Shown here one piece after another: positions 53,128 to 61,254 of a DNA stretch of 64,000 bases (position 1 is the first letter of the stretch; the number at the start of each line of letters is the position of its first letter). The position numbers and the translations under genes were made by a program. The notes below the pieces were generated by a model that saw nothing but the letters and a program-made list of their open reading frames with translations, did not search any database and was not told the origin of the DNA. The stretch is from Kiritimatiellia bacterium (GTDB taxonomy: Bacteria; Verrucomicrobiota; Kiritimatiellia; RFP12; UBA1067). The stretch spans positions 1 through 64,000 of the forward strand of contig JAFXTB010000110.1 in assembly GCA_017525225.1 (NCBI GenBank), given 5' to 3'.

Positions 53128-54321
53128 ATGTCGCAAATGAATCCGACCATATATCTGGACAACAACGCCACCACGCGCGTCGCCCCCGAGGTGCTGGAGG
53201 CGATGCTGCCGTTCCTTCGCGAACGGTATGGCAACCCGTCCTCCATGCACGCATTCGGCGGGGCCATCGCAAAGGACCTCGCCCGCGCGAGGGAGACAGC
53301 CGCCGCCTTCATAAACTGCGAGCCGGACGAGATACTCTTCACATCCTGCGCCACCGAGGCCGACAACACCGCCATCCGCGGCGCCGCCGAGTTCATCGGC
53401 CGTGGTGCGCGGATCGTCACCACCGCCGTTGAGCATCCTGCCGTGCTGCAGCCGGCGCGCCGCCTCAAGGCCATGGGGCACGAGGAGATCGAACTGCCGG
53501 TGGACGGCGTCGGGCAGATCGATCTGGAACGCCTTCGCGCAGCGATCGGCGACGGCCCCGGCACCATCGTCTCGACGATGTGGGCCAACAACGAGACCGG
53601 TACCATATTCCCAATCGAGGCCATCGCGCAGATCGTGAAGGAGCGCGGTGCGGTAATGCATACGGACGCCGTCCAGGCCGGTGGCAAGATACCCATCGAC
53701 GTCAGGCGCGTGCCTGTGGACATGCTGACCCTCGCCGGACACAAGTTCCACGCTCCGAAGGGCGTGGGCATGCTCTATGTGCGCCGCGGCACGAAGCTGA
53801 AGCCGTTCATGCTCGGCGGACACCAGGAGGGCGGCCGCCGCGCAGGGACGGAGAACGTGCCGTACATCGTCGGATTCGCGAAGGCGTGCGAGCTGGCACA
53901 GGCCGGCATGGCGCAGGAGGCGGCCGCGCTTGCGCCGTTGCGGGACCGCCTCGAGGCCGGCATCCTCGCCGCCTGTCCGAACGTGCGCGTGAACGGCGAC
54001 CGCGAGCACAGGCTGCCCAACACGCTCAACGTCAGCTTTGAATACATCGAGGGCGAGGCGATAGCCTACCGCCTTTCGGACATCGGCATCTGCATATCCA
54101 CCGGCTCCGCATGCGCGTCGGGCTCGCTCGACCCTTCGCACGTGATCCGCGCGATGGGGGTGCCCTTCACGGCCGTGCACGGCTCGGTACGCTTTTCGCT
54201 CTCGCGCTATACCACAGCCGAGGAGATCGATTTCGTGCTGGAGAGGCTCCCGCCCGTCATACACGGTCTTCGCGAGCTTTCACCCTTCGGTCCGGGCAAG
54301 GGCCCCACAACCTTCGCCTAG
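53128..54321 (+). CDS. nifS: Cysteine desulfurase, NifS type
   Basis: 397 residues. Fold I PLP enzyme that releases sulfur from cysteine for Fe-S clusters and thiolation. MNPTIYLDNNATTRVAPEVL, GNPSSMHAFG, FTSCATEADNTAIRG, TAVEHPAVL, WANNETGTIFP, HTDAVQAGGKIP, catalytic LAGHKFHAPKG lysine, GGHQEGGRRAGTEN and the mobile-loop cysteine in STGSACASGSLDPSHV. Starts at 53128 or 53137; the ribosome site AAAGGG is 2 or 11 bases away. It may supply sulfur to the PP-loop thiolase. Its TAG stop shares CTAG with the convergent OppD-type gene. Confidence 0.95.
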   Translation: MSQMNPTIYLDNNATTRVAPEVLEAMLPFLRERYGNPSSMHAFGGAIAKDLARARETAAAFINCEPDEILFTSCATEADNTAIRGAAEFIGRGARIVTTAVEHPAVLQPARRLKAMGHEEIELPVDGVGQIDLERLRAAIGDGPGTIVSTMWANNETGTIFPIEAIAQIVKERGAVMHTDAVQAGGKIPIDVRRVPVDMLTLAGHKFHAPKGVGMLYVRRGTKLKPFMLGGHQEGGRRAGTENVPYIVGFAKACELAQAGMAQEAAALAPLRDRLEAGILAACPNVRVNGDREHRLPNTLNVSFEYIEGEAIAYRLSDIGICISTGSACASGSLDPSHVIRAMGVPFTAVHGSVRFSLSRYTTAEEIDFVLERLPPVIHGLRELSPFGPGKGPTTFA

Positions 54322-55250
54322 ACCTGGCGCAGCAGGCACGCAAGACTCCGCGCTCCGCATCTCGTCTCCGCGGGGATTTCGCTGCGGCAGCGGTCCGTGG
54401 CAAGGCTGCAGCGCGGTGCGAAAGCGCAGCCTGGCGGCCAGGCGTCCGGCGGCGGAACGGTTCCGGGAATGTCCGCAAGCGGCGCATCGCGTGGCGCATC
54501 CAGCGCCGGCACCGCGGCCAGAAGCCCCTGCGTGTAGGGATGGCGCGGATCAGCCAGCACCTCCACCACAGGGCCCGATTCCACCACCGTGCCTGCATAC
54601 ATCACGTTGACCGTATCCATGCGCCCCGCCACAAGACCGAGGTTGTGGGTTATCAGCAGCACTGCCATGCCGGTCTCGGCGGCAAGGGAGTCCATGAGAT
54701 CCAGCACCTCGCGCTGCGTGGTGACGTCGAGCGCGGTGGTAGGCTCGTCCGCCACCAGAAGATCCGGCTGGGCCGCAAGGGCCATCGCGATCATGGCGCG
54801 CTGCTGCTGTCCGCCCGAAAGCTCGCAGGGGAAGGACGATGCCGCCCGCACCGGATCTGGGAGGCCGGTGCGTGCAAGCAGCTCCACGATCCGATCGTCG
54901 CCAGCGCGGCGCGACAGGCCGTCGGGCAGCGCCTCGCGGATCTGGTCTCGCACGCGCATCACCGGGTTGAGCGATTCCGTTGGGTTCTGGAACACGTACG
55001 CCAGGCGCGGACTTCTACCCTCGATCGGCGTGAATGAGATGCTGCCGCCGACCTCGGCGCGGTCTATCGGCGGCAGCCCCGCAAGCGACAGCGCCGTAAG
55101 CGACTTGCCGCAGCCAGACTCCCCTACCAGCGCCACGCGCCCGTGCTCGGGCACGCTGAAGGAGACGTCCCGGACCGGGACCACCTGCCTGCCATCCCTG
55201 CGAAACGCTATGCGCAGATGGCTTACCTCAAGAAGCTTTGCCTGTGACAT
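54318..55250 (-). CDS. Oligopeptide-type ABC transporter ATPase (OppD/DppD-like)
   Basis: 310 residues from ATG 55250. Walker A VGESGCGKSLTALSLAG, Q-loop YVFQNPTESLNPVMRV, signature ELSGGQQQRAMIAMAL, Walker B LLVADEPTTALDVTTQ, and the OppD-specific C terminus HPYTQGLLAAVP...PPGCAFAPRC with cysteines (CRSEIP). No OppB/C permease or binding protein lies nearby. The ATG at 55259 overlaps the -10 box, so 55250 is preferred; that ATG is 7 bases from TATAAT. Confidence 0.92.
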   Translation of the reverse strand: MSQAKLLEVSHLRIAFRRDGRQVVPVRDVSFSVPEHGRVALVGESGCGKSLTALSLAGLPPIDRAEVGGSISFTPIEGRSPRLAYVFQNPTESLNPVMRVRDQIREALPDGLSRRAGDDRIVELLARTGLPDPVRAASSFPCELSGGQQQRAMIAMALAAQPDLLVADEPTTALDVTTQREVLDLMDSLAAETGMAVLLITHNLGLVAGRMDTVNVMYAGTVVESGPVVEVLADPRHPYTQGLLAAVPALDAPRDAPLADIPGTVPPPDAWPPGCAFAPRCSLATDRCRSEIPAETRCGARSLACLLRQV

Positions 55251-55257
55251 GTCGTCC

Positions 55258-55266
55258 ATTATACCA
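55258..55266 (-). promoter_or_regulatory. Extended -10 promoter for the OppD-type gene, leaderless spacing
   Basis: Sense TGGTATAAT, GGACGAC, ATG (7 bases), the same as purD and the rhamnosidase. Confidence 0.7.
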
Positions 55267-55271
55267 TAAAT

Positions 55272-55757
55272 TCAGCCGTCTGCGGCACGGCAATGGCAGC
55301 ATTCGCCATCCCGCCTCGTGAAATCCCGCACCCATGCCAGCTCGCGCCGGCGCATGCGCATGCGCCCGGCGGGGTCCAGGTCGTCCGCCCCGGAAAGATG
55401 GTCCATCCCGTGGGCGACCTAGAGCAACAGCTCCTTCGCGACCGACCACCCCTTCCGCCGCGGCGCGGCGCGGCGCGCCTGGTCCACGTTGACGAAGAGC
55501 TCGCCGTGTATGCCCGGCGTCTCCGGCGGGATGGATTCGTATGCCTGCGTTATCACGTCGGTGGCGCCGGCGACGCCCATGATCGCGCGGTGGAGCATGT
55601 CAGAGCCGCCGTCATCCACGAGATGCACCACCACCTCGTGCCACGTGCCGCCTACGCGCCTTCTGGACCTTTCTGCGAAATACTGCGCGGCCGCCCGGAC
55701 CGCGCTCCGCGCGATCCCCGCTCCGTCCGGCAGCCTTCCCGCCAGCGACACCTTCAC
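55272..55757 (-). pseudogene. ybeY: Endoribonuclease YbeY, interrupted by an in-frame TAG
   Basis: From GTG 55757 (overlapping the FecCD stop as GTGA) the frame encodes 112 residues, then TAG at 55419-55421, then 48 more in-frame codons to TGA. Before the stop: TWHEVVVHLVDDGGSDMLHR, GVAGATDVITQAYES, GIHGELFVNVDQARR. After it: VAHGMDHLSGADDLD, the YbeY metal motif HGxxHLxxxDH/D, then MRMRRRELAWV. Homologues have an aromatic residue, often Tyr, where the TAG stands. The total of 161 codons is normal for YbeY. YbeY matures 16S rRNA and is nearly universal, so this is a pseudogene, a read-through gene, or a base-call error. TAG ends other genes here and RF1 is present. Confidence 0.8.
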
Positions 55758-56617
55758 GCCCGCACCTCCCTCGCAAGAAGGAAGAGGAACAACGGCGCGC
55801 CCACGAGCGAGCACACGACGCCGGCCGATATGCTGCCCGGCAGCAGCCGTCCGATCTGCGCGGCGACCACCAGCGCAATGCCGCCGAACAACGCCGAAAG
55901 GAGAATGCGCCTGCGATGGAGGCCGCCGAAGCAGCGATTGACGAAGTTGGGAACCACGAGGCCCACGAAGCCGATCGGCCCGGCGAGCGCAACCGCCACG
56001 GCCGTGGCGAGCGACACCAGCCCTAGCGCGACGATCTTGAGCCGACGCGTATTCACGCCCAGGCACTCGGCCTCGTCGCGGCCAAGCTCCAGCACGTTCA
56101 GGTAGCAATCGACGCGCATGAGACCCGCGAGCGCCACCCCTACGGCCAGCGCACCGAACGCGAGCGACGTCGGGCGGACGTCCAGCACGTCGCCGAACAT
56201 CCATTGCGTGACCTTCGCCATCGTCGCCGGCTCCGAGCACGACAGCACGAGCATCTGGAGCGAACAGGTGAAGCCGCCCGTGACGAACCCCGCCAGCACG
56301 ACGGTGGTGCCGGACGACCTTATCCGCGCCGCCGAGGAGCCCTCCGTGCGGCGTCTCGCGGCAAGCGTCGCCACGCCGCATACAAGAATGAGCGAGAAGC
56401 ACGACCCGCAGAACGACGCCGCAGGCAGGACGAGCGCGGAGAAGGCGGTAAGGCCGAAGTGGATGGAAAGCGCCACGAACAGCGACCCGCCGCCCACCAG
56501 CCCAAGGATGTACGGCTCGGCGAGCGGGTTGCGCAGGACGCTCTGCAGCACGCAGCCAGACATTCCAAGGGCCGCGCCGACGACGAAGGCGGAGAGGATG
56601 AAGGTCAGATAGGACAC
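55754..56617 (-). CDS. FecCD-family ABC permease
   Basis: 287 residues from GTG 56617, 4 bases after the PilB stop. About eight to nine membrane segments with the FecCD/BtuC hallmark GMSGCVLQSVLRNPLAEPYILG near the N terminus and GPIGFVGLVVPNFVNRCFGG. The family imports iron-siderophores, haem or cobalamin. It is slightly shorter at the N terminus than usual, and no matching ATPase or binding protein follows; ybeY is next. Confidence 0.88.
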   Translation of the reverse strand: MSYLTFILSAFVVGAALGMSGCVLQSVLRNPLAEPYILGLVGGGSLFVALSIHFGLTAFSALVLPAASFCGSCFSLILVCGVATLAARRRTEGSSAARIRSSGTTVVLAGFVTGGFTCSLQMLVLSCSEPATMAKVTQWMFGDVLDVRPTSLAFGALAVGVALAGLMRVDCYLNVLELGRDEAECLGVNTRRLKIVALGLVSLATAVAVALAGPIGFVGLVVPNFVNRCFGGLHRRRILLSALFGGIALVVAAQIGRLLPGSISAGVVCSLVGAPLFLFLLAREVRA

Positions 56618-56621
56618 GGCG

Positions 56622-58313
56622 TCACGTGTAGCGCAGGACCTCGTCCACGGTCGTGTAGCCGTCGAGAATCGACCTGACGCCATCCTCGCGCATGGTGCGC
56701 ATCCCCAGCTCGCGCGCCTTCTCGCGGATGATCAGGGTAGGCGAACGCGAGTTGATGAGTTCGCGTATGGGGTTCGTCACGCGCAGATACTCGAAGATGG
56801 CCTTGCGTCCCTTGTACCCCGTGCCGTTGCATGTCTTGCAGCCCCTGCCGAAGTAGAACGGGCGCCCGCCTATCTGGTCGCGGGTGAGGTTGATGCGCTC
56901 GAGCGTCTCGTTGTCGGGCTCGTACGCCTCCTTGCACTCGCGGCAGCAGGTGCGCAGCAGGCGCTGCCCAAGCACGGCCTCGAGGGTGGATGCCACCATG
57001 TACGGCGCCACGTTCATGTCCACGAAGCGCATCACGGCGCCGGCGGCGTCGTTGGTGTGCAGCGTGGAGAACACAAGGTGGCCTGTCAGCGCGGCCTGGA
57101 TGGCCACCTCGGCGGTCTCCAGGTCGCGGATCTCGCCGATGAGCATTATGTCCGGATCCTGTCGCAGGAATGCGCGCAGCACCTTGGGGAAGGTGTTGCC
57201 GACATCCGGGTTGATCGGCACCTGCACGATGCCGTCCACGTCGTATTCGACAGGTTCCTCGGCGGTGAGAAGCTTCGAGTCGATGGAGTTGATGCGCCGC
57301 AGCACGGAGTAGAGCGTGGTCGTCTTGCCCGAGCCCGTGGGCCCCGTCACCACGATGATGCCGTTGGGCTTCTCGATGTCCATCGTCAGCTGCTCGTAGA
57401 CATCCTCCGCGAGCCCCACGTTCTCAAGGTCGAGCGAAGTGGCGCTCTGGTCGAGGATACGCATGACGACGGACTCGCCGTGCGCGGTGGGCAGGCACGA
57501 CACGCGCAGGTCCACGGGTCGGCCCGCGACTGTGATCGCTATGCGCCCGTCCTGCGGCACGCGCCGTTCGGCGATGTTGAGGTTCGCCATGATCTTCACG
57601 CGCGATATGATCGCGGGCGCCATCGACACGTCCGGCGCCTTCACCTCGTAGAGCGCGCCGTCCACCCGGTAGCGGATCTTGAAGTCCTTCTCGAACGGCT
57701 CGATGTGGATGTCGGCCGCGCGGTCCACTACGCCCTGGTAGAGGATCATGTTGACGAACTTCACGATGGCGTTGTTGTTGGCCGCACCCTCGAGCGCCGC
57801 CACGTCGTTCGGATCGGACTTGAGCGACTCGTCGCCGTCAAGCCCTTCGCCGAGCGACTTCAGCATGTCGGCCACCGAATCCGAGGCATCGCCGTAGTGC
57901 TGCGATATGCGCGCGTTGACGTCCGCCTCGCGCGCCATCACGAAGCGCACCTCCTTGTTGAGCGCGAAGGCGACCTCGTCGGAGACGCGCGGATCCACGA
58001 GGTTCGCCGTGGCGAGGGTGACGCTCGTGTCGTCCACGGCCACGCACAGCACGTTGTACATGCGCGCTATGGAGGAGGGTATGGCGTTCACGGTGTCCGC
58101 GTCCAGCTCCATCGCCGCAAGGTCAATCACCTCGCAGCCCTGGTACGCCGCCATCATGCCCAGGAGGTCGTCCTCCGTGACGTAACCCCCGTCTATGACC
58201 AGCTGGCGGATCGGCTTGCCGCCGTCGTTCTTCTGCTCGTCGAGGATGACTGCAATCTGCTCGTCGTCCAGGACGCCGTTCTGCTTGAGTAGGTCGAGTA
58301 GCGGATCGAACAT
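56622..58313 (-). CDS. pilB: Type IV pilus / type II secretion assembly ATPase PilB
   Basis: 563 residues. N-terminal GspE-N (MshEN) domain (residues 1-150), then NNAIVKFVNMILYQGVVDRA, ADIHIEPFE, RVPQDGRI, Walker A VTGPTGSGKTTTLYS (about residue 330), Asp box AFLRQDPDIMLIGEIRDLET, His box TGHLVFSTLHTNDA and the zinc-binding CCREC/CKTC region near 470-505. It powers pilus extension or pseudopilus assembly. Directly followed upstream by pilT (4-base gap). Confidence 0.95.
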   Translation of the reverse strand: MFDPLLDLLKQNGVLDDEQIAVILDEQKNDGGKPIRQLVIDGGYVTEDDLLGMMAAYQGCEVIDLAAMELDADTVNAIPSSIARMYNVLCVAVDDTSVTLATANLVDPRVSDEVAFALNKEVRFVMAREADVNARISQHYGDASDSVADMLKSLGEGLDGDESLKSDPNDVAALEGAANNNAIVKFVNMILYQGVVDRAADIHIEPFEKDFKIRYRVDGALYEVKAPDVSMAPAIISRVKIMANLNIAERRVPQDGRIAITVAGRPVDLRVSCLPTAHGESVVMRILDQSATSLDLENVGLAEDVYEQLTMDIEKPNGIIVVTGPTGSGKTTTLYSVLRRINSIDSKLLTAEEPVEYDVDGIVQVPINPDVGNTFPKVLRAFLRQDPDIMLIGEIRDLETAEVAIQAALTGHLVFSTLHTNDAAGAVMRFVDMNVAPYMVASTLEAVLGQRLLRTCCRECKEAYEPDNETLERINLTRDQIGGRPFYFGRGCKTCNGTGYKGRKAIFEYLRVTNPIRELINSRSPTLIIREKARELGMRTMREDGVRSILDGYTTVDEVLRYT

Positions 58314-60177: not shown

Positions 60178-61254
60178 CTAGCCTGGCAGGGCGGCGGCGA
60201 CGCGCTCCGAGACGTCCTTCTCGCGCAGGGCGTCCAGCACCGGATCGAGATCGCCGTCAACGATGCGGTCGAGAGAATACAGCGTAAGGTCTACGCGGTG
60301 GTCGGTCAGCCTGTTCTGCGGAAAGTTGTATGTGCGGATGCGTTCGCTGCGGTCGCCCGATCCGCGCAGCGAGAGCCTGCTGGCGCCGGCGCGCGCCTCT
60401 TCCTCACGGCGCTTCTGGTCGAGGATGCGCGCCTTGAGCGTGGCGAGGCACTTCTCCTTGTTGCGCTGCTGGCTGCGCTCGTCCTGGCACTGCGCCACGA
60501 GCCCCGTGGGCAGGTGCGTCATCCTTATGGCGGAATAGGTCGTGTTGACGCCCTGGCCGCCATGTCCGCCGGCGCAGAAGATGTCGATCCGCAGATCCTT
60601 CTCCGGGATGTCGAAGTCGTCGTCCTCGGCATCGGCCTCGGGGAACACGATCACCGTGGCTGCGGACGTATGGATGCGCCCCTGCGCCTCCGTCACCGGC
60701 ACGCGCTGCACGCGATGCCCGCCGGACTCGAACCTGAACCGCCCGTAGGCGTTCTCGCCCGAGACGGTGAAGATGATCTCCTTGTAGCCATCGAGGGAAG
60801 TTGGCGAGGACGACATCACGTCGACCTTGAGCCCCTTCGCCTCGCAGTAGCGCGAGTACATGCGGAAGAGGTCGCCGGCGAATATCTCCGCCTCGTCGCC
60901 TCCGGTGCCGGGGCGGATCTCGAATACCGCCGCACGCCCTTCAAGCGGATCGGGCGGCAGAAGCCCGGCCATCACGGCACGCTCGGCGGCAGGAACCGCC
61001 GCCTCCAGGGCGGCCAGCTCCTCGCGGGCCATCTCCCCCAGCTCGGGATCCTCGGCGAGCGCCTTGTTGCCCTCAATGTCGTCCAACAGCTTGAAGTAGC
61101 CCTTCGCGGCGGCCTCCAACTTGCGCAGCGCGGTATGCTCGCGGACAGTGGCGCGGTAGCGCTTCGCGTCCGCCAGCACGGCGGGGTCGCCCATGTCGGC
61201 CTCCACCTGCGCCAGCCGGGCCAGCACCCGTGCGATCTGTTCCTTGTCAATCAT
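60178..61254 (-). CDS. prfA: Peptide chain release factor 1
   Basis: 358 residues, standard for RF1. The stop-codon-reading tripeptide is P186-V-T188 in HRVQRVPVTEAQGRIHTSA, as expected for RF1 (UAA/UAG), and the catalytic GGQ is at 232-234 (GGHGGQGVNTT). It ends translation at UAA and UAG codons. ATG 61254. Its last 12 bases are duplicated across the mobile element next to it. Confidence 0.97.
   Translation of the reverse strand: MIDKEQIARVLARLAQVEADMGDPAVLADAKRYRATVREHTALRKLEAAAKGYFKLLDDIEGNKALAEDPELGEMAREELAALEAAVPAAERAVMAGLLPPDPLEGRAAVFEIRPGTGGDEAEIFAGDLFRMYSRYCEAKGLKVDVMSSSPTSLDGYKEIIFTVSGENAYGRFRFESGGHRVQRVPVTEAQGRIHTSAATVIVFPEADAEDDDFDIPEKDLRIDIFCAGGHGGQGVNTTYSAIRMTHLPTGLVAQCQDERSQQRNKEKCLATLKARILDQKRREEEARAGASRLSLRGSGDRSERIRTYNFPQNRLTDHRVDLTLYSLDRIVDGDLDPVLDALREKDVSERVAAALPG

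Follow-up and report, generated by a model that had tools for sequence, protein, structure and literature searches.

An in-frame TAG in the ybeY gene of a Kiritimatiellia bacterium, probably a one-base consensus error over a conserved tyrosine codon

In the assembly of a Kiritimatiellia bacterium, the ybeY gene is interrupted by a single in-frame TAG that is alone in its lineage. The best reading of this TAG, and probably the correct one, is a one-base consensus error; the wrong base is one that we infer. The gene was found in the window, the whole 64,000-nucleotide stretch of DNA that was analysed.

The interrupted ybeY frame

The ybeY reading frame (55272-55757), recognised from the sequence and by Pfam and NCBIfam, lies on the minus strand, a point left unstated in the original prediction. 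It runs from a GTG start at 55757 to a TGA stop at 55274-55272 and comprises 162 codons, both stops included. The predicted interruption was seen directly in the sequence as TAG at codon 113 (55421-55419, minus strand). A Shine-Dalgarno-like GGGAGGTG (55763-55770, minus strand) stands 5 bases 5′ of the GTG. Two intact minus-strand genes, recognised by frame and profile, flank ybeY within 54318-56683: a FecCD-type ABC permease gene (55754-56683), whose end overlaps the ybeY start, and, downstream, an oligopeptide-type ABC transporter ATPase gene (54318-55259). In the relatives compared, neither neighbour was recovered when the flanks of ybeY were searched at the protein level.

YbeY endoribonucleases cleave single-stranded RNA in a zinc-dependent manner and take part in maturation of the 16S rRNA 3′ end; here this activity is a predicted one. 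With the TAG read as Tyr, the frame matched PF02130 (YbeY) over residues 40-140, a match spanning the TAG, with an E value of 3.8e-13 and 49.9 bits against a cut-off of 25 bits. Taken separately, the N-terminal 112 residues stayed under this threshold with 22.9 bits, and the 47 C-terminal residues did not match PF02130 at all. The read-through frame also passed the NCBIfam equivalog model TIGR00043 (rRNA maturation RNase YbeY), with 52.9 bits against a cut-off of 45. The predicted fold of the read-through protein had a pLDDT of 95, and its best PDB matches were all YbeY/UPF0054 (7y7o, 1xm5, 1oz9, 1tvi and 1xax), with the YbeY proteins of E. coli, A. aeolicus and S. aureus among the structures matched; the Foldseek E value against E. 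coli YbeY 1xm5 was 7e-8. Compared with known YbeY endoribonucleases, the protein is alike in its fold, in its H-x3-H metal motif and, when read through, in passing the curated cut-offs, and it differs in the TAG at codon 113 of the assembly and in an Asp at the third metal-ligand position. As judged from its sequence, the interrupted gene is predicted to be a normal, single-copy ybeY.

All three metal-ligand positions lie 3′ of the TAG, so a nuclease could not be formed from the truncated product. Function of the split gene by re-initiation was considered and rejected: the nearest in-frame ATG stands five codons past the TAG, and the first metal-ligand His would be lost.

The claim that the gene reads normally on both sides of the TAG held up, with conserved residues kept upstream and downstream (TDVIT, GE, E109, the HGxxHxxGxxD motif and the MRRRE tail). 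Compared with one relative, differences at codon positions 1/2/3 numbered 13/8/37 in 70 codons upstream of the TAG and 3/6/14 in 30 codons downstream. The differences fall mostly at third positions, indicating that the part 3′ of the TAG is still under coding constraint. The ybeY frame is undecayed on either side. It follows that the TAG arose very lately, is an artefact, or is read through.

Conservation of ybeY, codon 113 and the metal site

The genome carrying the window comprises 4.2 Mb in 180 contigs, with an estimated completeness of 100% and contamination of 2.5%. Judging from its fragmentation and from the labels of its relatives, it was most likely assembled from a metagenome; nearly all relatives with names are themselves metagenome assemblies or uncultured, and bear the labels Kiritimatiellae, Lentisphaerae or Verrucomicrobia. 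A second ybeY, proposed earlier as something to look for, was not found in a six-frame search of the genome, which recovered one ybeY with a single TAG inside. Within the same family, a ybeY match was present in 104 of 115 genomes and contained an internal stop only in the present one, the other 103 being intact; the good genomes of the family all had it (29/29). At the level of the phylum, where the loci taken were the best-scoring ones and not a random draw, ybeY was matched in 283 of 289 genomes; the six that gave no match are near-complete.

The original prediction also put the TAG at an aromatic position, often Tyr, next to the metal site. A Tyr codon at this place was confirmed by reading the codon in 126 loci, not all independent (two collections overlap) and gathered with a pattern that did not demand Tyr: every one carried TAT or TAC. 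Tyr113 was likewise invariant in a 69-sequence alignment, selected by a pattern that demanded both Tyr and the Asp ligand; because of this preselection, the 126-locus reading is the fair test of the codon. Outside the phylum, position 113 is not always Tyr: the chains of S. aureus and T. maritima carry different residues there in the alignment. No second genome of the same species was found, the 51 relatives' loci reaching at most 69% protein identity, and a DNA-pattern search of a viral collection for same-species sequence returned nothing.

The metal-ligand motif HGMDHLSGADD occupies codons 116-126 (55380-55412, minus strand). In the zinc structure of S. aureus YbeY, the third ligand is His130 (PMC9895993). 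When the motif was aligned with S. aureus His120/124/130, two His and Asp126 fell at these positions, and the present protein therefore departs from the three-His pattern H-x3-H-x5-H. Asp was found at the third zinc-ligand position (HGxxHLxGxDD) in all 126 loci of the sampled phylum. Being common to all of them, the Asp represents variation of the lineage rather than damage to the present gene, and it is unrelated to the TAG. From the sequence, two His and an Asp may still bind zinc. This ligand substitution may be a more interesting observation than the TAG.

Consensus error or nonsense mutation

In draft and metagenome-assembled genomes, single nonsense changes reflect either sequencing error or a fresh pseudogene. 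The ybeY stop is like them in being isolated, one base from a conserved codon and present in no relative, and nothing distinctive sets it apart from them. The original prediction had listed base-call error, pseudogenisation, amber suppression and read-through as possible; the first two still stand, pseudogenisation in the form of a recent nonsense mutation, while amber suppression is disfavoured and read-through gained no support. The likelihoods given below are our judgement.

In the favoured reading, the TAG at codon 113 would be a single-base consensus error, in base calling or assembly, over the conserved Tyr codon of a likely metagenome assembly, and the gene of the living organism would then encode an ordinary YbeY. 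A consensus error is the simplest explanation because the stop is isolated, lies one base away from an invariant tyrosine codon, and interrupts an undecayed, single-copy and widely kept gene in what is likely a metagenome assembly. Against it stands the general error rate, which is not high, given the completeness of 100% and contamination of 2.5%, the intact neighbouring genes, and the lack of any other spurious stop in about 29,500 conserved codons.

A genuine nonsense mutation of very recent origin, either fixed in the sampled strain or still segregating there, is possible but rather unlikely. It would make ybeY a fresh pseudogene and leave a cell without YbeY, or with traces of it arising from the usual low rate at which UAG is misread. 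The stop is, after all, present in the assembly, and the six phylum genomes without a ybeY match are in keeping with a loss. Passages of one report (PMC4047096) likewise describe ybeY as dispensable though important in E. coli; the same passages give it as essential in Vibrio cholerae. However, the gene carries no other sign of decay, and the near-universal retention of ybeY in the lineage, including all 29 good family genomes, argues against a mutational loss.

Reading of TAG in this genome

Were the TAG read through or suppressed to a useful degree in vivo, whether by tRNA-Tyr acting as a near-cognate or by an amber suppressor tRNA that escaped assembly, YbeY would be made at full length, perhaps in small, regulated amounts. 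We regard this as improbable. The constrained downstream frame and the retained start and Shine-Dalgarno-like site are consistent with it, and no positive signal for it was detected: the stop is missing from every relative, the TAG is followed by G and not by a CARYYA-type context, and the RNA downstream folds in no unusual way (z -1.58). A literature search on YbeY read-through and on stops in metagenome assemblies found nothing. The suggested check for a suppressor tRNA gave no CUA anticodon when ARAGORN was run on the loci of 48 tRNA matches. These 48 matches lack tRNA-His(GTG), tRNA-Ile(GAT) and tRNA-Ala(TGC), though the genome is rated 100% complete. Because the assembly's tRNA set is incomplete, a suppressor could have been missed, which leaves some room for suppression. 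For PylS, no match above the cut-off was found, and the two weak matches were at the level seen in E. coli and other PylS-free control genomes. A more elaborate version, in which a genuine, fixed amber at the Tyr position next to the metal site would control through UAG read-through how much active YbeY is made, tying ribosome maturation to termination efficiency, is very improbable.

Among the tRNA loci, a cluster around a sigma-factor-like ORF was observed on another contig (C94, L113:8782-9852). It contains three short tRNAs (77-79 nt) with the Leu anticodons cag, caa and gag, together with Met and Asn tRNAs. The Leu-anticodon tRNAs do not have the long variable arm that a tRNA-Leu should carry, and the cluster is possibly a mobile element.

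The prfA gene, which encodes the factor that terminates at UAG (release factor 1), lies intact in the same window as ybeY (60178-61254, minus strand) and scored above the curated RF1 cut-off. An intact RF1 also speaks against suppression or useful read-through of the ybeY TAG. Elsewhere in the genome, a short release-factor-like ORF (contig C178:1724-2008) gave a weak RF1 match of 53 bits and may encode a rescue factor of the ArfB or PrfH type. Of 71 conserved genes, 14 end naturally in TAG. The proposal that other genes might contain an internal TAG was not borne out. Segments from about 736 kb of the genome (overlaps between loci included) were compared with relatives using a best-frame filter, and ybeY was the only interrupted gene in 83 conserved segments, or 29,481 codons; the remaining four stop lines (three distinct sites) lay at alignment ends, between genes. 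Given that no second interrupted gene occurs in these segments, the interruption is not a systematic feature. Two other approaches were set aside: an initial search for interrupted genes by homology was overwhelmed by matches in antisense frames and gave way to the best-frame filter, while a codon-usage scan for stops flanked by coding sequence returned mainly natural gene boundaries and had low power. TAG was inside none of the 31 ABC_tran matches in this genome. One ABC_tran match, at contig C165:2438-2899, has an internal TGA; it may be a pseudogene, or the match may run from one frame into another.

Compared with amber recoding, in which UAG is read as Gln or directs Pyl insertion, the present case is alike in having TAG at a sense position. 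It is unlike in that no suppressor tRNA or PylS was found, RF1 is intact, TAG serves as a terminal stop and no other internal TAG was seen. TAG keeps its standard meaning in this organism. A genome-wide reassignment of TAG to an amino acid, favoured by the single codon 113 of ybeY only, is refuted at the level the samples allow by the intact RF1, the genes ending in TAG, and the conserved segments and ABC_tran matches, with a likelihood that we consider negligible.

If the stop is an error, its meaning would be one of annotation caution only, as automated gene callers would miss ybeY here. If the mutation is real, a ribosome-maturation nuclease present almost everywhere would have been lost here, a rare event in nature. 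What can be reused is the body of evidence that TAG is not recoded in this lineage.
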